Source: Anaerolineaceae bacterium (GTDB lineage: Bacteria > Chloroflexota > Anaerolineae > Anaerolineales > Anaerolineaceae). Taken from it: 64,000 nt of DNA. The translations under genes were made by a program, and so were the position numbers. Positions 46,243 to 56,042 of the stretch are shown piece after piece. Below the pieces are notes generated by a model, which had not been told where the DNA came from, did no database searches, and saw nothing but the letters and a program-made list of their open reading frames with translations. Positions within the stretch are counted from its first letter, which is position 1. Every line of letters begins with the position of its first letter. The stretch spans positions 1 through 64,000 of the forward strand of contig JAENZI010000004.1 in NCBI GenBank assembly GCA_016841365.1, in the 5' to 3' direction.

Positions 46243-48123
46243 TTATCTTGGGCGCCTTAAAACGCGTTTGTCGTCGCGCCGTAAGGTGATCCCGGTCTGA
46301 TCGAGATATTCGAGGACCGCAACGGCATATTTGCGGCTCGTGTCGAACTTATCCCGCAGTTCAGCCAGGGTGATGCTGCCGTATTCTTTGATGTGGTCGA
46401 TGACGGCAGTTTGCATTTCTTCATATACAGGGTGCTCGAACAGCACATCCTCGCTTAATTGGATCAATTGACCGGTTTCAATCAATGCCTGTAAAAGCGG
46501 CTCGCCAATCTCCTCGGCGCACTGCTTGACTGAAGGCGGTGAATAGGGCGATGCGTGAAAGGCTTTCAGGAGTGAGTCGATCTGGGTTTGCTGCTTTTGT
46601 GTAAACTGCACGGCGTGGCCGGATAGATGCAGTTTGGCGCCGGTTTCGATGAGGACATCGCCGGCTGCCATGCGTGAAATCAGGGCATCGAACACATTTG
46701 ATGCCAGGCCCATTTCTGATTTTAGCTGCTCCCTCGGCATGCCGGGTCGCAGGGGGAATCCCTGATGATACGCATCGAGTTTTTCTTCGATTTTTTGCTG
46801 CAGGGTGCGAACGTTCTCAACTGGGAGGATCAAACGCTCTCCGTTTAAAGGCACCAGCGTGCCGCCGTCGATCAATGTTTTGGCAGCTTGTTGTGCAGGG
46901 GCATTCTCTAACCCCGAGGTTTCAATGATTTCCTTGAGAGAGGTAGCGCCCAATTTTTGAGCTGTCTGGAAGATGATCTCCTCAGGCGAGCCGATCAATA
47001 ATTGTTCCAGCTCTGCCAGGCGGATCTCGTTAAAGCGTTTATGCCTGCGTTTTGGGTGCGGGTCAACCACCTGTCCGCCCCCGATCGTGGCAGGCGGCGA
47101 AGGCCGGCGGATGATGAAACGGTCTTGCCGAAGGGCAACGATGGGATCTTCCAGCATCAACTGCAAGAAGGCATCTTCTCCCGGTTGCAACACCTCGACC
47201 CCCAGCAGGCGTACTCTGGCCATGACCTCCGCTGCGCCGATATAAATTTTTACTTCAGTGTTGTGTTTCAGCGGCGCATCTGCGTCTTTGATTAGGGTGC
47301 ACCAAACGTCAATCATCTTTGTCCCAGAATAAGTGCCTGGGTGAACGAGAACGTCGCCGCGCATAACTTGATCTACGCTGATACCGGTGATATTGACTGC
47401 CGTGCGGCCACCCGGGAGGGCACGCTCCTCTGCCTGCTTATGAGTCTGCAAGCCGCGTATTCGGCCTTCCAACCCCGATGGGAGAATTTCCACGCTGTCA
47501 CCGACCGCAAGTTGACCGTCCATCAATGTGCCCGTGACGATTGTCCCGAACCCGGGCAGGGTAAAGACCCGGTCGATGGGGAGGCGCGGGCGTCCCAGGT
47601 CAGGGCGGTGGGGGCGCAGAGAAAGGATATCCTGCAAAACACTTATCAGCTCATCGATGCCTTCACCCGTGCGTGCGCTGACCCTGACGATGGGTGCATT
47701 TGCCAGCACGGTGCCCTGCAGGGTTTCGCTTAAGTCGGCTTCGACCAGGTCGAGCCATTCAGGTTCTTTGATCAGGTCCGTTTTGGTTAATGCAACAACG
47801 CCTGCTGGGATCTGCAGCAGGTCGAGGATGGCAAGGTGCTCGCGGGTCTGGGGCATCACGCCTTCATCGGCTGCCACCACAAACAGCGCGGCATCGATGC
47901 CGCCAATGCCCGCCAGCATATTTTCGATGAAATCGCGGTGTCCGGGCACATCCACAATGCCGATTTCTTCACCGTTTGGCAATTGGATCCAGGCAAAGCC
48001 CAGCTCAATGCTCATCTCCCGATCCTGTTCTTCTTTCAGCCGATCCGGGTTGATCCCTGTGAGGCGGTTGATGAGCGTGGATTTGCCATGGTCTACATGA
48101 CCGGCGGTTCCGATAACCTGCAC
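46243..48123 (-). CDS. selB: Selenocysteine-specific translation factor SelB
   Basis: 626 residues. The G1 motif is GTAGHVDHGKSTLINRL, then DREMSIELGFAW, DVPGHRDF and TKTD. Domains II and III follow, and the C-terminal 200 residues carry winged-helix repeats (RPGMPREQLKSEMGLASNVFDALISRM and SITLAELRDKFDTSRKYAVAVLEYLDQ) that read the SECIS hairpin. It delivers Sec-tRNA(Sec) to in-frame UGA codons. It starts at a GTG preceded by AGGAA. selA, selC and selD are not in the window. It is cotranscribed with the coiled-coil gene, 18 bases upstream. Confidence 0.94.
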   Translation of the reverse strand: MQVIGTAGHVDHGKSTLINRLTGINPDRLKEEQDREMSIELGFAWIQLPNGEEIGIVDVPGHRDFIENMLAGIGGIDAALFVVAADEGVMPQTREHLAILDLLQIPAGVVALTKTDLIKEPEWLDLVEADLSETLQGTVLANAPIVRVSARTGEGIDELISVLQDILSLRPHRPDLGRPRLPIDRVFTLPGFGTIVTGTLMDGQLAVGDSVEILPSGLEGRIRGLQTHKQAEERALPGGRTAVNITGISVDQVMRGDVLVHPGTYSGTKMIDVWCTLIKDADAPLKHNTEVKIYIGAAEVMARVRLLGVEVLQPGEDAFLQLMLEDPIVALRQDRFIIRRPSPPATIGGGQVVDPHPKRRHKRFNEIRLAELEQLLIGSPEEIIFQTAQKLGATSLKEIIETSGLENAPAQQAAKTLIDGGTLVPLNGERLILPVENVRTLQQKIEEKLDAYHQGFPLRPGMPREQLKSEMGLASNVFDALISRMAAGDVLIETGAKLHLSGHAVQFTQKQQTQIDSLLKAFHASPYSPPSVKQCAEEIGEPLLQALIETGQLIQLSEDVLFEHPVYEEMQTAVIDHIKEYGSITLAELRDKFDTSRKYAVAVLEYLDQTGITLRRDDKRVLRRPR

Positions 48124-48141: not shown

Positions 48142-49323
48142 TTATTCTTTGAAAATGTTATTGTATGTGTCGATTGCATCCCGGTACGTGCTCAGGATGG
48201 ATTGCATTTGTTTGATTTCCTGGTTGCCAAGCTGTTGGATGGTATCCTGGATGGATTCGAAAGTGTCTTCAAGGTTGGCGATCCGGTCCGCGACGCTGTC
48301 GAGCGAGCGGTTCATTTCACGATGCTGTTCTTCTTGCGATAAGGTGTAATTAGACCACCGCTTTTGATCGTCAGACTTGAAGGATGTCCATTCCTGCCTG
48401 AAGCGGTCTTCATTCAGGCGTTGGACCTCTGTAATCTCATTGATTCGTCGCTCAAACCGTTGGGTGACTTCATCGAGCGCGGCCTGAGATTGTTTGACGG
48501 AGCGGTGGGTATCTTCTAAGCCAGAAATTTGTTCTTCAAGGCTGGTCGTAATCTGTTCCATGCTTTCAAATCGTTCCGACCATTGCGTGAAGACGCGGTC
48601 GCGATCTACCTGGGACATGTTGACCTTTTCGATGAAGGCAGTTTGTGCGTCGCGCCGTTCAGATTCTGCTTCCAGCAGGCTTCTGATCCTTGTTTCCAGC
48701 TTGCGCATGGTGTCACTGACCAGTTCCTGTTTGCCGCGGGTTTCATCTTGCCGCTTGCGGATTGCGGAAATCTCGCCTTGTAAATCGGTCAATTTTTTGG
48801 CATCCTGGCGGCGGTTCTCCTCAAACATGCGCAGTGAGCGTTTATAATCCTCGTCAAAACGTCCGATTTCATTGACATGGGCTTTTAATTCTTCGATCAA
48901 TTTCGCCAGGCGTGCATCTTCTTCTTTACGATCATCGAGCAGGTCATGGACATCGTCAAAGGTGGTGATTTTTTTGCGCAGATCAATCAGATCGCCTTTC
49001 AGGTCTTCAATATCCTTCTGATTACGATCTGTTTTGATGCTCTTTTCAGCAACCGACTCTTTGAAATCTTCAATTTTTCGGTTCGTTTCTGTACGAAGGC
49101 TGGTGACATCTCCCTCGAATTGTTCTAAACGTGCCATCAAGGTGTTCAGGCGGGTGATTTCACTTTCTAAATCTGCCAGCCGCATCCTGAGGGCGTTGTT
49201 TTCAGTGCCCAGGTTCTCTAATTTGCTTTGTAACGCGGCGATCAAGGTCTTATCGTTTCGCCGTTCATTATCCAGCATTTCCAGGCGCTTTTCAAATTGT
49301 TCTGAATCAAGTGGTTTTTCCAT
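48142..49323 (-). CDS. Long coiled-coil protein
   Basis: 393 residues, almost wholly heptad-repeat helix rich in Glu, Lys, Arg and Asp, with no signal peptide or membrane segment. It resembles SMC-like or tropomyosin-like rods but has no ATPase head. It is expected to be a cytoplasmic dimeric rod or scaffold. The function is unknown. The ATG at 49323 has AGGTGA upstream; an in-frame start 24 codons earlier lacks one. It is immediately upstream of selB and 144 bases downstream of the antiporter-like module. A GAG/CTC stem-loop at 49366-49389 is in its leader. Confidence 0.75.
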   Translation of the reverse strand: MEKPLDSEQFEKRLEMLDNERRNDKTLIAALQSKLENLGTENNALRMRLADLESEITRLNTLMARLEQFEGDVTSLRTETNRKIEDFKESVAEKSIKTDRNQKDIEDLKGDLIDLRKKITTFDDVHDLLDDRKEEDARLAKLIEELKAHVNEIGRFDEDYKRSLRMFEENRRQDAKKLTDLQGEISAIRKRQDETRGKQELVSDTMRKLETRIRSLLEAESERRDAQTAFIEKVNMSQVDRDRVFTQWSERFESMEQITTSLEEQISGLEDTHRSVKQSQAALDEVTQRFERRINEITEVQRLNEDRFRQEWTSFKSDDQKRWSNYTLSQEEQHREMNRSLDSVADRIANLEDTFESIQDTIQQLGNQEIKQMQSILSTYRDAIDTYNNIFKE

Positions 49324-49467: not shown

Positions 49468-50880
49468 TTACTGCAATTGCGTAAAGGCGGTCAAGGTATC
49501 TGTGATTTTAGCAAAGATGGTGTGCGGGAACAAACCTAAAATCACCAGGAGCAGAATCACGATCAATAGCGGAATATACTCAAATCTTTTTTCCGAGATG
49601 GACCAGCGATGAGATACATCCTTATTTTTAGGGGATACCAGATTGGCTGCCAGGCGCAAAGTAAAAAGAAACAAACCCAGGTTGCCGATAAATGCCAGCG
49701 TCCCAATCGTTTGGTTTGTTCCGGCAACGGCTGTGAGCAGATTGATTTTAATTGGAAAGGCTGCCAGAATGGGTAAACCGGCAATGCTTAATTGAGCCAA
49801 AATCAATCCGCTGGAAAGGAGGGGGTAGCGGCGTGCCAACCCGATAACTGAAGATATGGTGAGGGAGTCCGCGTATTTTTCGATCTGGGTCAGCGCATAT
49901 CCCCAAAGCCAAAACCCCAGCGCACGCACCGGGAAGAGCATCAACATCCAACGCGCGCCGCCTTGCGGGAGCAGACTGAGAGCGAGAAGCGAGAAACCAG
50001 TTTCTGCGAGGGCTGCGAAGCCAAAGGCACGTTTGAGGTTGTCTTGGAACATCGTCCAGACGCCGCCAAAGATCACCATCAGCGCGCCCATTGTTCCTAA
50101 AATGATATACAGGTTCTCAGAAGTCCTGAGAAAAGTGTAACGATCGAAGAAGTTCAGGCTGAATGTGAGGATGGTCGTCGGGAAGAGCGTCATCAGGTAA
50201 ATCATGATTGCGGGCTGGCTGTCTTCACCGACCATCGGCACCCAGGTATGAAAGGGAAATATCCCCAGCCACAAGGCAAACCCAAGCCCTAAAACGATTG
50301 TGGTTTGAGCCACCTTTGGGCTGTCTGGCGGCAGGGTTTCAACCCCCGTCAGCAGCCAACCTGCCAGCAAGATGAGCGGCAGCGCCAGTGTTTGCAGGGT
50401 GAGGTAGCGCAGGATGCCGGGGTTGGTCTTTTTTGTCACCGGGGAAAGAATGGGCACAGACACCAGCACAGCCGCCTGGATAAATAGGGCGGCATACAGG
50501 AATGGTTCCACACCCATGGCTGCTGTTAATAACGCGGTGATCATCAGGCTGATCGGCCGGAATATCTCTGGGATGCTGGGTGTGCCGCTGTTTAGACTCC
50601 ACAGACCGGTCACCGCAAAGATGAACGAAATGAAAGGCAGTATCTCATAAGCTATTGTTATTTGGCGGCCAAGGATAGCAAGACTTTCAGTAAAAACTAA
50701 TTGGACGGGGCCGATCGAAAGGGTTAGATCTTCTGGGAATAAGATTGCCAACAGAGATAAACCAAAAGCGGTAATGGCAGTGATAACAATCCCCAAAATA
50801 CGTTTATTAAGGAATGCAAAGGACGCAGCCGCTACAACAAAAGGAAGAACAACCCACAGCAAAGGCATACTGAGGCTCAT
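49468..50880 (-). CDS. Proton-antiporter-like membrane subunit (NuoN/MrpD/HyfF type)
   Basis: 470 residues with about 14 helices of the complex I/Mrp antiporter fold. Recognisable are IFPFHTWVPMVGEDSQPA, the counterpart of the PFHxWLPDA motif, a conserved VEPFLYAALFIQ segment on the fifth helix, and FPIKINLLTA with its helix-12 Lys. The Lys that normally precedes the PFHxW motif by a few residues is replaced (FALWLGIFPFH), so proton translocation may be altered. Its start overlaps the HyfE-like gene by four bases (ATGA). No NADH- or hydrogenase-type subunit is nearby. Confidence 0.75.
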   Translation of the reverse strand: MSLSMPLLWVVLPFVVAAASFAFLNKRILGIVITAITAFGLSLLAILFPEDLTLSIGPVQLVFTESLAILGRQITIAYEILPFISFIFAVTGLWSLNSGTPSIPEIFRPISLMITALLTAAMGVEPFLYAALFIQAAVLVSVPILSPVTKKTNPGILRYLTLQTLALPLILLAGWLLTGVETLPPDSPKVAQTTIVLGLGFALWLGIFPFHTWVPMVGEDSQPAIMIYLMTLFPTTILTFSLNFFDRYTFLRTSENLYIILGTMGALMVIFGGVWTMFQDNLKRAFGFAALAETGFSLLALSLLPQGGARWMLMLFPVRALGFWLWGYALTQIEKYADSLTISSVIGLARRYPLLSSGLILAQLSIAGLPILAAFPIKINLLTAVAGTNQTIGTLAFIGNLGLFLFTLRLAANLVSPKNKDVSHRWSISEKRFEYIPLLIVILLLVILGLFPHTIFAKITDTLTAFTQLQ

Positions 50881-51488
50881 TTAACCTCCTCCTCAATTAG
50901 GGTTTGTTTTTCTTTATCACCGGATTTTATGATGAAAAACACACCAACCAGTGCCAGGCCCAGGTTGACGATCACCAGCAGCCCGGTCAGGAGGGTGGAC
51001 CGTTCAAGCCCGGCATGAATTACCTCAAAGCCTCCCATCAGGCTCAGTAAACTGATGATGGTCAGGTAGGGTTCGGCACTGCTGCCAAGCTGCATTAATG
51101 CCATACCGATCATCATCAACCCGCCCTGCACAATGACAAGGTCTATTGATGGGAATAGATTTTCTTGCAGGCTGGGTGAGATGACAAAGATCACCATGAT
51201 CACCAGCAAACCAGATAATCCTCGGAAAAACATACTGGCGTTAGGTTCGGTTGCTGTTTCTGTTGGATATTGGCGCAAGCAGGTCAGGGCAATTGCAGCG
51301 GTTGCCATCCAGCCGGTGATGACTTTCACGACTGCCATCCCTAACGGCCAGGAGAGAGTGACCAGAGCAAAAGCCGCCAGGTATTGGACTGCCAGGGCGA
51401 GGGTGTTGATCCGCCAATCTCTGAAGATCAGGATGACCATGGCGGTGATCACAATCAGCACGAAGGCGAGGGTTGAGAGGATGGACAT
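50877..51488 (-). CDS. Small membrane subunit (HyfE/NuoK-like)
   Basis: About 203 residues with six hydrophobic helices. The C-terminal half (LIGMALMQLGSSAEPYLTIISLLSLMGGFEVIHAGLE and onward) resembles hydrogenase-4 component E, a NuoK-related subunit, with acidic residues in a membrane helix. Its position between two antiporter-like genes repeats the HyfD-HyfE-HyfF order. The ATG at 51488 is one base after the upstream stop (TGAAATG) and has GGAGGG upstream, so the three genes are translationally linked. Confidence 0.7.
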   Translation of the reverse strand: MSILSTLAFVLIVITAMVILIFRDWRINTLALAVQYLAAFALVTLSWPLGMAVVKVITGWMATAAIALTCLRQYPTETATEPNASMFFRGLSGLLVIMVIFVISPSLQENLFPSIDLVIVQGGLMMIGMALMQLGSSAEPYLTIISLLSLMGGFEVIHAGLERSTLLTGLLVIVNLGLALVGVFFIIKSGDKEKQTLIEEEVK

Positions 51489-51489
51489 T

Positions 51490-53106
51490 TCAGTTAAGCC
51501 CTCCACCCGACAACAGCGAAATCAGCAGCACCAATAAGATGAAGGTCCACAGGATTCCGCCATCGCTTTCTAAAAGCGTTGAGATTGCGTTCAATAATTT
51601 ACCGATCCAGTTGTTGATGCGCCACATGACCTTGTAAAGCCACTCCAGACGGAGGATAGGCTCAAGGCGCGGCATTATGGTTTCAAAAACTTTAGCCATC
51701 CTGCTGCTGGCAGGCAGTGTGTAATTGGGTGGACTGATCCCCAGCTTATTTGCAAGCAGGATGATCCCAATGATAAGGAGGTTGCCGATCAGCGGCAGCC
51801 ACCAAACCCCTACCGTCAGAGAACCGGGCCATCCGATCAAACCAAGTGCAAATATTGCCTGGATGATGAAGATTAAGCCCAACGGATAAACCAGCCTCGC
51901 CCAAGATTCGAGCGTGCCGGGTTCTCCACCGGGTTGAAGGATGCGATTCAGGTAACCCAAAACCATCATTGTGTGAATTAGCAGATAAAGAATACTGAAA
52001 ACATTGAAGCCATCAGCCGTAAACCCAGCCCAACCGCTTGCGATGGGGGTAAAGGGTAAACCGACGAGTCCGATCAAACCAAAATACAGCAAAAAGTTCA
52101 TGCGCTGGATGCGCGGGTAGTAAAGAAATAAAAGACTCCCGGGCAAAATGAGCGCTATGCCCCAGGCAATGCTTGCTGCAGGTACCCCATTCAGCACCGA
52201 GGCTGTCGCTAGTGCTGACCAGGCAATGATCCAAAACGGTCGGCCTACAATTTCGTCAGATGCGCGCAGCCAGCGTACAGCAGCATAAAACCCGGCTAAA
52301 AGGAGCAGCACATGGAACAGCGGTTCCCAGCTTTGCAGCCCTTGCGGGATCAGATCAGCCGGAAGACGTGCCAGCAGACTCAGGCTGGTGATCGTAGGTG
52401 CTAAACGGATGATGTTGCCAGCGCCGCGTCGTAGGTCGGGTTCCTGCAAAAATGGCAGCGTAAGCGGGAAGACACCTAAACGCAAACCCGCAGCCAAAAG
52501 GAAGACGAAACCGGCTTTTTGCGGGATAGCGGTCAGGTCAAAACTGCCGTTAACCTGCCAGGCAAGCGTGGTTGCGTAAAACACCATCAGGATGGAAAGC
52601 ATTCGAACGCCATAGGAAATGATGATCCTGAGTGTGAATTGTTGGGCGGTTTCAAGTCGCAGCAGGTAGACAAGTTTGACCAGGTCTACAATCGCCCAGG
52701 TGACCATCAGCATCAGACTGGTGCCGGAAAGGAGTGCCATCAGGCTGATCGCCGTGATCATCAGGCTGGCGGACCATGATTGTGGGGTGCTGTCGTAGCG
52801 AGTGCGGGCTGCGTCTGTCAGAATAACCGAGAGGGCAATGGTGATCAGTGCGAAAACATAAGGCCAATTGCCGTAATCCAGCAATAGAGAAAAATCTCCG
52901 AGAAAACCGGGTGCGACTTGTTCCCAGCTAAAAATTTCGAGTGTGGTGGGAAGATATAGCCGCAGGATCAAAATCGTCAGCCAGGCAACGGCCGATGTGA
53001 TTGACGCGATCAACCAGCTTGTGCCGAATTTGGGCCTGATCTGGTCAAGGATAAAAATTGCCAGTGAGGCTAAAAGCAGAATCCCAACGGGGAGCAGAAG
53101 TATCAT
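51490..53106 (-). CDS. Antiporter-like membrane subunit (NuoL/NuoN type), divergent
   Basis: 538 residues with about 14-15 helices. Similarity to NuoL/NuoN is in the overall helix pattern. The usual PFHxW motif appears only as GVFPLTLPFLQEPDLRRG, with no His, and key helix charges are missing, so it is a degenerate member. The C-terminal 70 residues (LRLEWLYKVMWRINNWIGKLL then a final helix) resemble the lateral-helix tail of NuoL. It starts 19 bases after the dihydropyrimidinase gene with little ribosome-site sequence. Confidence 0.68.
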   Translation of the reverse strand: MILLLPVGILLLASLAIFILDQIRPKFGTSWLIASITSAVAWLTILILRLYLPTTLEIFSWEQVAPGFLGDFSLLLDYGNWPYVFALITIALSVILTDAARTRYDSTPQSWSASLMITAISLMALLSGTSLMLMVTWAIVDLVKLVYLLRLETAQQFTLRIIISYGVRMLSILMVFYATTLAWQVNGSFDLTAIPQKAGFVFLLAAGLRLGVFPLTLPFLQEPDLRRGAGNIIRLAPTITSLSLLARLPADLIPQGLQSWEPLFHVLLLLAGFYAAVRWLRASDEIVGRPFWIIAWSALATASVLNGVPAASIAWGIALILPGSLLFLYYPRIQRMNFLLYFGLIGLVGLPFTPIASGWAGFTADGFNVFSILYLLIHTMMVLGYLNRILQPGGEPGTLESWARLVYPLGLIFIIQAIFALGLIGWPGSLTVGVWWLPLIGNLLIIGIILLANKLGISPPNYTLPASSRMAKVFETIMPRLEPILRLEWLYKVMWRINNWIGKLLNAISTLLESDGGILWTFILLVLLISLLSGGGLN

Positions 53107-53124: not shown

Positions 53125-54543
53125 CTACAGGATCTCACCTTCGTGACGGTGGAGGTAACGTCCCATGCCCGGTTTGCCGTGCCATTCGCCTTTGTCGACG
53201 ATCAGTTGCCCGCGCAAAAACACTTTGGTCGGGAAGCCTTTCAGATGCCAGTCTTCATAGAGATTGTAATCTGTGCGGTGCTGCGCCACATTCACGCCAT
53301 ACTGCAATTCTAAATTCGGATCCCAAATGGCGATATCCGCATCTGCACCGGGCACCAATGCGCCTTTTTGTGGATACAACCCAAAAATTTTGGCCGGGTT
53401 GGTCGCATGCAGAGCAACAAATTGATTGGGCGTCAAACGCCCGTTGCCCACGCCCTGGGTCCATAAGATGGGCATACGGTCTCCAACGCCGGGCAGGCCG
53501 TTGGGGATTTTGGTGAAGTCATCCTTACCCAGCTCTTTACCCGGGATCGCGACCATTTCCCCTTCGTATTCTATGGGTTGGGTGCCGTCAAAGAAGAATG
53601 GGCAGTGGTCAGTTGACACTGTTTGGATGATGTCATCCTCAAGGCCTTTCCATAACCGGTTGTTATCTCGTTCAGTACGGATAGGCGGTGAACAGATCCA
53701 TTTTGCCCCGTCTTCACGTTGCAGGTCCTCTTCAACGAAGAACAGGTAGTGGGGGCAAGTTTCGCCCATCATGTTCAACCCATGTTCACGGGCATATGCC
53801 AATTGATCTACTTCTCCGGCGGCATTCATATGCACCAGATAAAGCGGTGCATCCCCTGCCTGGGCCGCCAGTGCTGCCGCTCTGAGGGAGGCTTCTACGG
53901 CACCCCATGCTGGGCGGGTTTTAGCATGATAATAGGGCGCAATATTGCCTGCTGCCAGGGCTTCTTCCACCAGGATGTCGATCACATCGCCGTTCTCGGC
54001 GTGTACCATGGTTAACATGCCAGCGGCGCGCGCCACCCGCATCACGCGGAAAATCTCACTATCTTGCAGGCGAAGGCGCCCGTTGTAGGCAGTGAAGACC
54101 TTCAGGCTGGTTATGCCGAGATCGGGTAAGCTGAAAATTTCTTTAGCCACGTCTTTGTCGAAGCGGGTGATATTCATGTGAAAGCCAAAATCGACAGACG
54201 CTTTCGGGTCGGCTTTGGCGTGCCAGCGGTTGATGTTTTCTTCCAAGGTGCCTTCATCCTGCGGGACGAAATCGATTACGGTGGTGGTACCCCCAAAAGC
54301 AGCGGCTTTACCCCCGGTATAGTGATCGTCGGATGAAACAGTGCCAAACATGGGCAGGTCGAGGTGCACATGGGCATCGATGCCGCCGGGCAATACGAGC
54401 TTGTCCTGCGCGTCAATGACTTGTGCGTCGGGGTGGGTCAGTCCCTCTCCGATCAACTTGATTTTTTCGCCTTCAATCAGCAGATCCGCCTTGAAACTCT
54501 TGCTGGCGGTAACCAAAGTGCCGTTTTTTATCAGAATTGCCAT
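53125..54543 (-). CDS. hydA: Dihydropyrimidinase / hydantoinase
   Basis: About 472 residues of the cyclic amidohydrolase family. Metal ligands appear in GGIDAHVHLDLPMFG (HxH), the carboxylated Lys in LKVFTAYNGR, His in MVHAENGD and LVHMNAAGE, and Asp in STDHCPFFF. It hydrolyses dihydropyrimidines, hydantoins or related cyclic ureides to N-carbamoyl amino acids. A YgeW-type transcarbamoylase and a carbamate kinase, encoded about 8 kb away on the same strand, could use such products. The ATG at 54543 has GGAG eight bases upstream. It is followed within 20 bases by the antiporter-like genes. Confidence 0.92.
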   Translation of the reverse strand: MAILIKNGTLVTASKSFKADLLIEGEKIKLIGEGLTHPDAQVIDAQDKLVLPGGIDAHVHLDLPMFGTVSSDDHYTGGKAAAFGGTTTVIDFVPQDEGTLEENINRWHAKADPKASVDFGFHMNITRFDKDVAKEIFSLPDLGITSLKVFTAYNGRLRLQDSEIFRVMRVARAAGMLTMVHAENGDVIDILVEEALAAGNIAPYYHAKTRPAWGAVEASLRAAALAAQAGDAPLYLVHMNAAGEVDQLAYAREHGLNMMGETCPHYLFFVEEDLQREDGAKWICSPPIRTERDNNRLWKGLEDDIIQTVSTDHCPFFFDGTQPIEYEGEMVAIPGKELGKDDFTKIPNGLPGVGDRMPILWTQGVGNGRLTPNQFVALHATNPAKIFGLYPQKGALVPGADADIAIWDPNLELQYGVNVAQHRTDYNLYEDWHLKGFPTKVFLRGQLIVDKGEWHGKPGMGRYLHRHEGEIL

Positions 54544-54687
54544 AAGATTCACTCCAAGGAATGGTCTGGATGCGGGTTCTTATTTAATGATTTTAGCAGA
54601 TTAAGAGAAAAATAGTGACGACGGCTCTTTGCAAAGGTGCATTCTCTCAAGGGTTACAGAAGGGTTGAATCGTGTTTTGTTTGTAAA

Positions 54688-54696: not shown

Positions 54697-54779
54697 TATG
54701 ATGAATTTGCTTGTTTTAGGTGTTGACATTTTTTAGTCATAGGCCAGCCTTACAAGTGGCGTGAAAAGGACGGACATTG

Positions 54780-56042
54780 ATGGGCGATCGGATCAGGTTT
54801 TATTACAATCGTATTCGCGAACATTTATGGGTCAAACCCTTGGTGATATGCATTTTGTCGGTGGCTGCAGCTTTTGTGGCAAAACTTGCAGACCAGATCG
54901 AGTTCCTCAGTGTTGTGCCTGAGGTTACCCTGAATTCATTGAATGTTTTCTTGAGTATTTCCTCAGGGAGCATGTTAGGTGTGGCGACATTTGCGGTCGG
55001 CTCAATGCTGACGGCATATGGCTCTGCCAGCAATACCGCTACACCCCGCTCTTTCCCCCTGATCATCGCTGATGATGTTTCACAAAGTGCTCTTTCATCC
55101 TTTATCGGCGCCTTTATTTTCAGCATTGTGGCATTGGTCGCTTTAGAAAATGGTTATTATGGTCCAGCTGGTCGATTTCTAATTTTTTTATTGACGGTGT
55201 TTGTTTTCGCAGTGATTATTTTCAATTTTATCCGCTGGCTGGATCGCATCGCTCGCTTAGGGCGCTTAGGCAATACTGTGGATAAGGTGGAGAAAGTCGC
55301 CTGCGAGTCACTGATAAGGCGAAGAAAGAGATCTACATATGGGGCCAAGGAAGCCGTCGGTTCACCTGAGGGTGAGCCAATTTATGCTGAAAAGGTTGGT
55401 TATATTCAGCGTATTGATCTACCAATACTTCAACGGATTGCTGAAACATCCGATGTACATATCACCGTTGCGTCATTGCCAGGCAAGTTCACATTTCCAG
55501 ATCAGCCTGTTGCATATGTGGCCGGTCAGATTGACCCCGATAAAAAGGATGGAAAGATCAATCAAATTTTAGATACGTTTATTATTGATGATGATCGCGC
55601 TTTCGATGAAGATCCACGTTTTGGGCTGGTGGTTCTTTCGGAAATTGCCAGCCGAGCCTTATCCCCGGCTGTCAACGATCCGGGTACAGCCATTGACGTG
55701 ATTGGTTCCCTGGTCAGAATTTTTACCGCCTGGGTCAGGGTCGACGAAAAGAATATTGAAACCGATGTAGAATTTGATCGGGTGTCTGTTCCAAAGCCCT
55801 CCATTGAAGATATGTTTGATGATGCTTTTACTGGAATTTCTCGAGATGGGGCTGGCACGATCGAGGTCGTTGTCCATCAAATGAAGGCATTAAGGTCGCT
55901 GGCGTGTTTGGGAGATGTTGACATGCAAAAAGAAGCCACTGTCCATGCAGAGCGAACTTTGAACTATGCGCAGAAATCCCTCAGCCTGAGAGAGGAAATT
56001 GCCCAGGTTGAGGCGCTTTATCATAGCATTTCGAAGCTGTAA
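54780..56042 (+). CDS. DUF2254 membrane protein
   Basis: 420 residues. Four membrane helices in the first 150 residues are followed by a soluble domain of about 250. The family block is SISSGSMLGVATFAVGSMLTAYGSAS near 55-80, with the later SRALSPAVNDPGTAIDVIGSLVRI. DUF2254 proteins are widespread and uncharacterised. The gene has many A+T-rich codons. The ATG at 54780 is preferred over a TTG one codon earlier; AAGGA lies about 10 bases upstream. It stands alone, divergent from hydA. Confidence 0.88.
   Translation: MGDRIRFYYNRIREHLWVKPLVICILSVAAAFVAKLADQIEFLSVVPEVTLNSLNVFLSISSGSMLGVATFAVGSMLTAYGSASNTATPRSFPLIIADDVSQSALSSFIGAFIFSIVALVALENGYYGPAGRFLIFLLTVFVFAVIIFNFIRWLDRIARLGRLGNTVDKVEKVACESLIRRRKRSTYGAKEAVGSPEGEPIYAEKVGYIQRIDLPILQRIAETSDVHITVASLPGKFTFPDQPVAYVAGQIDPDKKDGKINQILDTFIIDDDRAFDEDPRFGLVVLSEIASRALSPAVNDPGTAIDVIGSLVRIFTAWVRVDEKNIETDVEFDRVSVPKPSIEDMFDDAFTGISRDGAGTIEVVVHQMKALRSLACLGDVDMQKEATVHAERTLNYAQKSLSLREEIAQVEALYHSISKL

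Follow-up and report, generated by a model that had tools for sequence, protein, structure and literature searches.

It is debated which parts of the complex I membrane arm, both residues and subunits, are enough for ion movement, and engineered fragments are used to address the question. The Mrp antiporter is a redox-less set of proteins including NuoL-, NuoK- and NuoN/M-like members. Isolated antiporter modules of complex I, Nqo12 and Nqo13, conduct protons without a redox arm, and conduction is blocked once the middle or the terminal charged residue is lost (PMC11496545). In the DAB complex, DabB2 is NuoL-like and its partner DabA2 provides the missing TM12 charge; DabB2 retains residues of the cytoplasmic half-channel without the ion-pair motifs (PMC13144422).

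Here we analyse a related trio of genes in 64,000 nucleotides of an Anaerolineaceae bacterium (contig JAENZI010000004.1, positions 1 to 64,000; hereafter the window). No description of this module was found in the open-licence literature searched. The trio and its neighbours are as follows.

53125..54552, minus strand: D-hydantoinase/dihydropyrimidinase (family match, TIGR02033), neighbour only.
51490..53106, minus strand: P0001 (F1), NuoL-fold large subunit, 538 aa, with a NuoL-like C-terminal helix region (open reading frame; predicted model superposes on NuoL).
50877..51488, minus strand: P0002 (F2), HyfE-like small subunit, 203 aa from ATG 51488 (open reading frame; seven-helix model).
49468..50880, minus strand: P0003 (F0), NuoN/HyfF-like large subunit, 470 aa (open reading frame; PF00361; NuoN in PDB).
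48142..49323, minus strand: coiled-coil protein F3, neighbour only, belonging with SelB (context of F3 loci).
46243..48123, minus strand: SelB, selenocysteine-specific elongation factor, neighbour only (Pfam).

The three frames are confirmed as open on the minus strand (51490-53106, 50877-51506 and 49468-50880). ATG 51488, one base past the P0001 stop, is the likeliest start of P0002, a longer form from GTG at 51506 being possible, and P0002 and P0003 overlap by ATGA. This large-HyfE-large arrangement is the hyfD-E-F order of E. coli, which bears out the initial annotation's claim of three coupled genes in the order of hydrogenase-4. It was also right that the dihydropyrimidinase gene on the same strand stops 18 bases before P0001, and that the locus holds neither a redox subunit nor a NuoH-like gene, none being identified among the flanking genes scanned. 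A separate MrpE, MrpF or MrpG gene is likewise absent beside the trio in the flanks scanned, where the hydantoinase and the coiled coil lie.

P0001 has no match above cut-off in Pfam or NCBIfam. Its predicted model (pLDDT 85) aligns with NuoL structures at a VIA-align Z of 33-34 (7ar9_L, Z 34.1, 3.6 Å over 486 residues) and also superposes on MrpD/MrpA chains; by this model, P0001 has the NuoL/M/N (complex I antiporter-like) fold. P0003 matches PF00361 (Proton_antipo_M; 8e-15, 55.2 bits against a cut-off of 21.5), and a sequence search of PDB leads to NuoN (8e-13). P0002 also lacks a Pfam or NCBIfam match above cut-off, and Foldseek gives none at E <= 0.001. Its predicted model has seven helices, for which the best VIA-align row, a V-ATPase chain (Z 8.5), and the alignment with 8qby_J, presumably NuoJ (Z 7.6, 1.9 Å over 81 residues), are both too weak for a helical bundle; its profile, on the other hand, reaches small genes that sit between the large-subunit genes of HyfG clusters. 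It is very probable that the trio comprises a NuoL-like, a HyfE-like and a NuoN/M-like protein related to the hydrogenase-4/Ehr-type membrane arm.

The canonical set of TM5 Glu, TM7 Lys, TM8 Lys/His and TM12 Lys/Glu is not found in the large subunits. In P0003, W204 occupies the place of the TM7 Lys ahead of PFHTW, confirming the reported replacement of the Lys before PFHxW by Trp. P0001 has PLTLP where PxHxW is expected, and thus the reported loss of the His from one large subunit is correct for P0001 itself; the His is present in most of its relatives (PLHLP). From the gene order, the overlaps and such changes the initial annotation suggested a distinct function, provided that the charges had not simply shifted position. 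The canonical residues are indeed changed as it stated, although in P0001 some charges are moved or replaced rather than lost: the TM5 acid sits three residues onward (D141), and the position of the TM7 Lys is still basic (R209). In the aligned rows, of which the close ones derive from the 80 best among 284 relatives, the TM7 Lys occurs in 0/117 P0003-type and 0/95 P0001-type rows, after exclusion of partial sequences (L060_2, L052_52, L053_27), P0001-type rows no longer than 480 aa, and NuoL-like L107_110 and L112_89, which match the P0003 profile too. The P0003 relatives have gained a new buried acid (E/D293) and an arginine (R319), and the P0001 relatives keep the acid and the arginine while the TM12 lysine is mostly gone. 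In these alignments, the charges are rewired rather than simply lost in both large subunits. The two large subunits appear to complement each other in what they keep of the usual charge chain: the Asp and Arg of the first half in P0001, and in P0003 the acid, the Arg and a basic TM12 residue of the second half.

The small-subunit profile matches 214/298 Anaerolineae genomes, where a single-sequence scan of the genome contigs found no relative. The order and strand of the trio are constant in close loci; in some families the P0001-type gene is absent and the module is down to a two-gene pair. The trio is not a local oddity and recurs across the class Anaerolineae; locus L156 comes from a cultured relative, Anaerolinea thermolimosa IMO-1. 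Since simple ORF calling misplaced genes at some GC-rich loci, profile searches over all frames were used instead. In the survey of other Anaerolineae that the initial annotation had proposed, the trio recurs without complex I or hydrogenase redox genes: with E. coli, own-genome and L107 proteins as the only references, no redox subunit was detected near it at the 80 closest named loci (0/80) or at 39 loci from 27 other families, hand-picked for spread from longer match lists (0/39). Specifically, HyfG/49-kDa and HyfI/20-kDa subunits each score 0/80 and 0/39, and E. coli NuoH and HyfC have no match at the same 80 + 39 loci. This reference-protein search missed or barely touched a molybdopterin oxidoreductase (L100, L101) and a DHO_dh/Fer4 protein (L242).

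The Hyf/Ehr membrane arm resembles the trio in that a HyfE-like gene precedes a HyfF-like gene and follows another antiporter-like gene, and HyfG-linked relatives exist inside the same phylum; the trio differs in having no HyfG, HyfI or HyfC/NuoH genes and in its altered TM5, TM7 and TM12 charges. Like Mrp, it is redox-less with NuoL-, NuoK- and NuoN/M-like members, but it has three genes instead of six or seven and the canonical Lys is replaced. Nqo12 and Nqo13 are likewise antiporter subunits without a redox arm, although these were made in the laboratory and retain the canonical charges. The DAB complex shares a stand-alone NuoL-like protein working without a redox arm and an altered TM12 charge (PMC13144422), whereas the trio has three membrane subunits, no DabA and a residue pattern unlike that of DabB2.

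We read the trio as a self-contained ion-conducting membrane module of the complex I superfamily, a statement that as a whole has about an even chance of being right; that it moves an ion is predicted, by analogy, with similar confidence. It would be related to a Hyf/Ehr-type membrane arm and passed down the Anaerolineae without a NuoD/HyfG-type arm. The three subunits would assemble as one complex with an ion path shared between the two large ones, and H+, or Na+/K+ exchanged for H+, would move down or between existing gradients, as in Mrp and isolated antiporter subunits, and not via redox-driven pumping. Against this reading, the canonical chain is missing from both large subunits, which could mean that protons no longer have their usual route. 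Also counting against it are the molybdopterin oxidoreductase next to the two-gene version in family f13, the 49-kDa protein present in 22/24 trio genomes, and the absence of the NuoL-like gene from some families. More tentatively, the trio is possibly a minimal three-subunit transporter, a further machine of the superfamily beside redox complexes, Mrp and DAB, in which one path is split between a first half in the NuoL-like and a second half in the NuoN-like subunit with the HyfE-like subunit as a bridge, two subunits sufficing in some families.

It is doubtful, but conceivable by analogy, that the trio serves a non-redox partner as a transducer, in the way DabB serves DabA, with the gradient across the membrane driving a soluble or membrane enzyme or a transport step. 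The P0001 relatives have lost the TM12 Lys, as has DabB2, which receives this charge from DabA2 (PMC13144422). However, DabA (PF10070) is found in 0/24 trio genomes, the same profile being positive in 2/14 control genomes, which weakens a DAB-type partner, and among the reference proteins tested no neighbour accompanies the module in every family. A role in membrane structure or assembly that involves no ion movement seems unlikely: the canonical proton residues are gone from both large subunits, but a scaffold would not need conserved buried charges, some of them newly gained (E/D293 and R319 of P0003).

The trio might instead belong to a redox complex as its membrane arm, with a soluble arm that is either encoded at another site or of an unrelated kind, which we consider improbable. 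A 49-kDa protein occurs somewhere in 22/24 trio genomes, and the two-gene version of family f13 has a molybdopterin oxidoreductase gene next to it (58 bases off in L100, ~1.4 kb in L101). At 29 loci, likewise hand-picked for spread, a HyfG-like gene lies beside related genes in 8/13 from other classes and 0/16 from Anaerolineae (same profile); at these loci, an arrangement with a redox gene, which would have spoken against a distinct function, thus occurs only outside the class. Genome-wide, the 49-kDa protein (PF00346) is absent from G253 and G548, both trio genomes. The single-contig genome G253 also has no 20-kDa protein (PF01058), and its one PF00361 match is the trio's own. A NuoD/HyfG-type partner elsewhere is therefore not required. 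The 49-kDa protein of the window genome is clustered with three antiporter subunits of its own, and the loci tested revealed no NuoH-type interface gene close to the trio. Of the two options in the initial annotation, the stand-alone membrane module is thus favoured (80/80, 39/39, G253) and the partner of a soluble complex, as far as NuoD/HyfG types go, is weakened. That the trio is a decaying remnant of a former hydrogenase is barely credible, since the absence of redox genes and, in some families, of the NuoL-like gene is outweighed by invariant residues, class-wide retention and dN/dS values of 0.06-0.26 among the 14 of 21 close pairs listed, by which the trio is under purifying selection.

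On our preferred reading of a self-contained module, evolution has kept a redox-free membrane module class-wide with the canonical lysines swapped for other conserved charges, and this module, reduced to a two-gene pair in some families, offers a natural minimal system for asking what the antiporter fold does alone. Annotation is corrected as well: P0001 and P0002 had no family assignment, and P0003 resembles NADH dehydrogenase subunits, yet at least one host genome has no 49-kDa or 20-kDa protein. The hydantoinase adjoins the trio in 15/64 close loci with enough upstream sequence and in 1/39 loci of other families (L249), and a general link was dropped. F3 was not accepted as a module subunit, since in 11/13 fetched F3 loci remote from the trio the gene that follows on the strand is SelB.

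The three coupled genes on the minus strand encode a real, conserved complex I-type membrane module without a redox arm, the charges of which, judging from the protein sequences, are rewired relative to the complex I type. Its function is putative. The reading frames of the initial annotation were recovered at the same positions, and they are listed here with their neighbours.

51490–53106, minus strand: P0001, NuoL-fold large subunit
50877–51488, minus strand: P0002, HyfE-like small subunit
49468–50880, minus strand: P0003, NuoN/HyfF-like large subunit
48142–49323, minus strand: coiled-coil gene (F3), directly before SelB
46243–48123, minus strand: SelB, selenocysteine-specific elongation factor gene, directly after F3
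54777–56042, plus strand: predicted DUF2254 membrane protein (1.5e-93 to PF10011), its gene divergent from that of the hydantoinase (dihydropyrimidinase)

The trio is tightly coupled: a single base separates P0001 (538 aa) from P0002, and P0002 overlaps P0003 (470 aa) by ATGA. P0001 and P0002 had nothing above cut-off in Pfam or NCBIfam and no sequence match in the PDB. P0003 scored above cut-off for PF00361 and below the cut-offs of the NuoN and NuoM models, and matched NuoN in the PDB by sequence (8e-13). The predicted model of P0001, built on an alignment of 54 rows, is good (pLDDT 85, pTM 0.86) and superposes on NuoL chains with Z of 33–34 (7ar9_L, 3.6 A over 486 residues). P0002 is confidently predicted to have seven helices (pLDDT 95), and structure searches with this model gave no secure match.

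The module recurs in 80 close loci and in 39 loci chosen to represent 27 other Anaerolineae families. The close loci are the best 80 of 284 relatives in a named-genome scan with P0003, and the titles of these 80 all name Chloroflexi/Chloroflexota or subgroups (Anaerolineae, Anaerolineales, Anaerolineaceae, Brevefilum and Anaerolinea thermolimosa IMO-1). The P0001 gene is present in 72 of the 72 close loci with room for it, and all genes detected of the set from P0001 to SelB share one strand. In the other families, profiles found the small subunit in 39/39, the P0003-type gene in 37/39 and the P0001-type gene in 26/39 loci. The small-subunit profile matched 214/298 Anaerolineae genomes (130/190 of good quality) and 58/301 genomes of a phylum sample; P0001 as a single query found relatives in 27/298 Anaerolineae genomes. 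In some families (f6, f41, f45 and f13), only HyfE-like and NuoN-like genes were found. Loci of this two-gene type are L095, L096, L097, L257, L258, L261, L262 and L275, where no NuoL-like gene was found upstream.

Charged residues were aligned with E. coli NuoL/M/N and HyfB/D/F and read through the generally known roles of NuoN residues; the pattern is consistent. The loss of the canonical lysine from one large subunit, noticed at first, proved general: in the P0003 type, the TM7 Lys is replaced by an uncharged residue (Leu, Trp or other) in 80/80 close and 37/37 other-family rows. The TM5 Glu is retained in 69/80 close rows, being Gln in the window, and an acid stands at 293, His in NuoN and NuoM (79/80 close, 31/37 other-family rows), together with Arg319 (76/80 and 36/37) and a basic TM12 residue (79/80 and 33/37). 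In the P0001 type, the TM5 acid is not lost but shifted three residues on (D141 in 72/72 close rows, an acid in 21/23 others), the place of the TM7 Lys is taken by Arg (72/72 and 20/23) and that of the TM12 Lys by Trp (70/72 and 10/23). The changes are conserved replacements and no sign of decay; the three genes have dN/dS of 0.06 to 0.26 (14 of 21 close pairs). Residue 144 of the window's P0001 (about 52675–52677, minus strand) is Lys, the position being Glu or Asp in 72/72 close rows.

Isolated Nqo12 and Nqo13 both conduct protons in liposomes; conduction rises upon an ion-pair Glu-to-Gln change, and it is blocked when Nqo13 loses its middle Lys or its terminal Glu, or Nqo12 its terminal Lys (PMC11496545). 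Judged by these results, a complete canonical path is absent from both large subunits of the trio. Their remaining charges are complementary, which suggests that one ion path may be split over P0001 and P0003. A precedent for a partner filling in is DabB2, a NuoL-like protein whose missing TM12 charge comes from its partner (PMC13144422). The same precedent speaks for the main rival explanation, a DAB-like coupling of the trio to some partner. The favoured reading is putative ion transport by the trio, which would be powered by existing gradients.

By name, the closest redox relatives are the Ehr complexes, which are defined as hydrogenase-like complexes lacking the Ni-Fe ligands (PMC6349859). 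The original observation that redox subunits are absent near the trio extends to its relatives: complex I/hydrogenase redox reference proteins matched in 0/80 close loci, and 49-, 30-, 20-kDa or NuoH proteins in 0/39 loci of the other families, one of which (L242) has a weak ferredoxin-type match within a DHO_dh/Fer4 protein on the opposite strand. A 49-kDa (NuoD/HyfG) protein is encoded somewhere in 22 of 24 trio genomes and was not found genome-wide in G253 and G548. G253, a single contig of 2.95 Mb, also gave no 20-kDa protein, and its sole PF00361 match is the trio's own, at Pfam's sensitivity, since Pfam misses P0001-type proteins; G548 is a weaker case because it has two 20-kDa matches. 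A NuoD-type partner is thus not needed by the trio. The window's genome has three further PF00361 proteins on another contig, in a cluster that carries its own 49-, 30-, 20-kDa and NuoH proteins. In family f13, the two-gene version is followed on its own strand by a molybdopterin oxidoreductase gene, after 58 bases (L100) or about 1.4 kb (L101); this may be a redox link in that family, and it counts against the redox-free reading.

G000:C19, about 139000–148500 (L056, L057): group-4-hydrogenase-type cluster of the window's genome (three PF00361, PF01058, PF00329, PF00346, PF00146)
L100, 5585–7921, strand of the two-gene version: molybdopterin oxidoreductase gene (PF00384)
L101, 3938–6274, strand of the two-gene version: molybdopterin oxidoreductase gene (PF00384)

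Whether kin of the trio lie inside redox clusters, as the initial annotation had considered, depends on the class. Among 29 loci retrieved by means of the small-subunit profile, a HyfG/49-kDa gene adjoins the related genes in 8 of 13 from other classes of the phylum, three of the 8 also having HyfI/20-kDa, and in 0 of 16 from Anaerolineae. Both are Pfam-confirmed in L107. These small HyfG-NuoL-HyfE-HyfF clusters (L107, L108, L109, L111, L112, L115, L117 and L118) gave no NuoH or HyfC match. Their HyfG-like proteins hold both CxxC motifs in five cases and the second alone in three, and the TM7 residue of their P0003-type proteins is Arg in 8/8. A tree built from 97 rows of the P0003 type has a branch (support 94) that sets the eight redox-linked rows apart from the others, and 76/77 Anaerolineae rows group with a support of 80, which is not strong, the long row L268 falling outside. 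The redox arm was likelier lost than gained, the tree being unrooted.

F3 and SelB come after the trio in close loci (F3 in 74/74, SelB in 65/67). F3 belongs with SelB rather than with the trio, because it is present in 258/298 Anaerolineae genomes and, of 13 F3 loci retrieved from places without the trio, 11 have SelB as the next same-strand gene. It may be an accessory of selenocysteine insertion, or something older. Loci in which F3 was noted beside SelB are L277–L281, L284–L286 and L288–L290. In G253, F3 adjoins the trio, SelB is not adjacent, and a tRNA-Sec search gave no match over the gathering score. The adjacency to a dihydropyrimidinase gene described at first holds in 15 of the 64 close loci with room and not in the rest. 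Together with a hydantoinase-type gene close to the trio in L249 and the DHO_dh protein of L242, it may point to a loose tie of the trio to pyrimidine catabolism.
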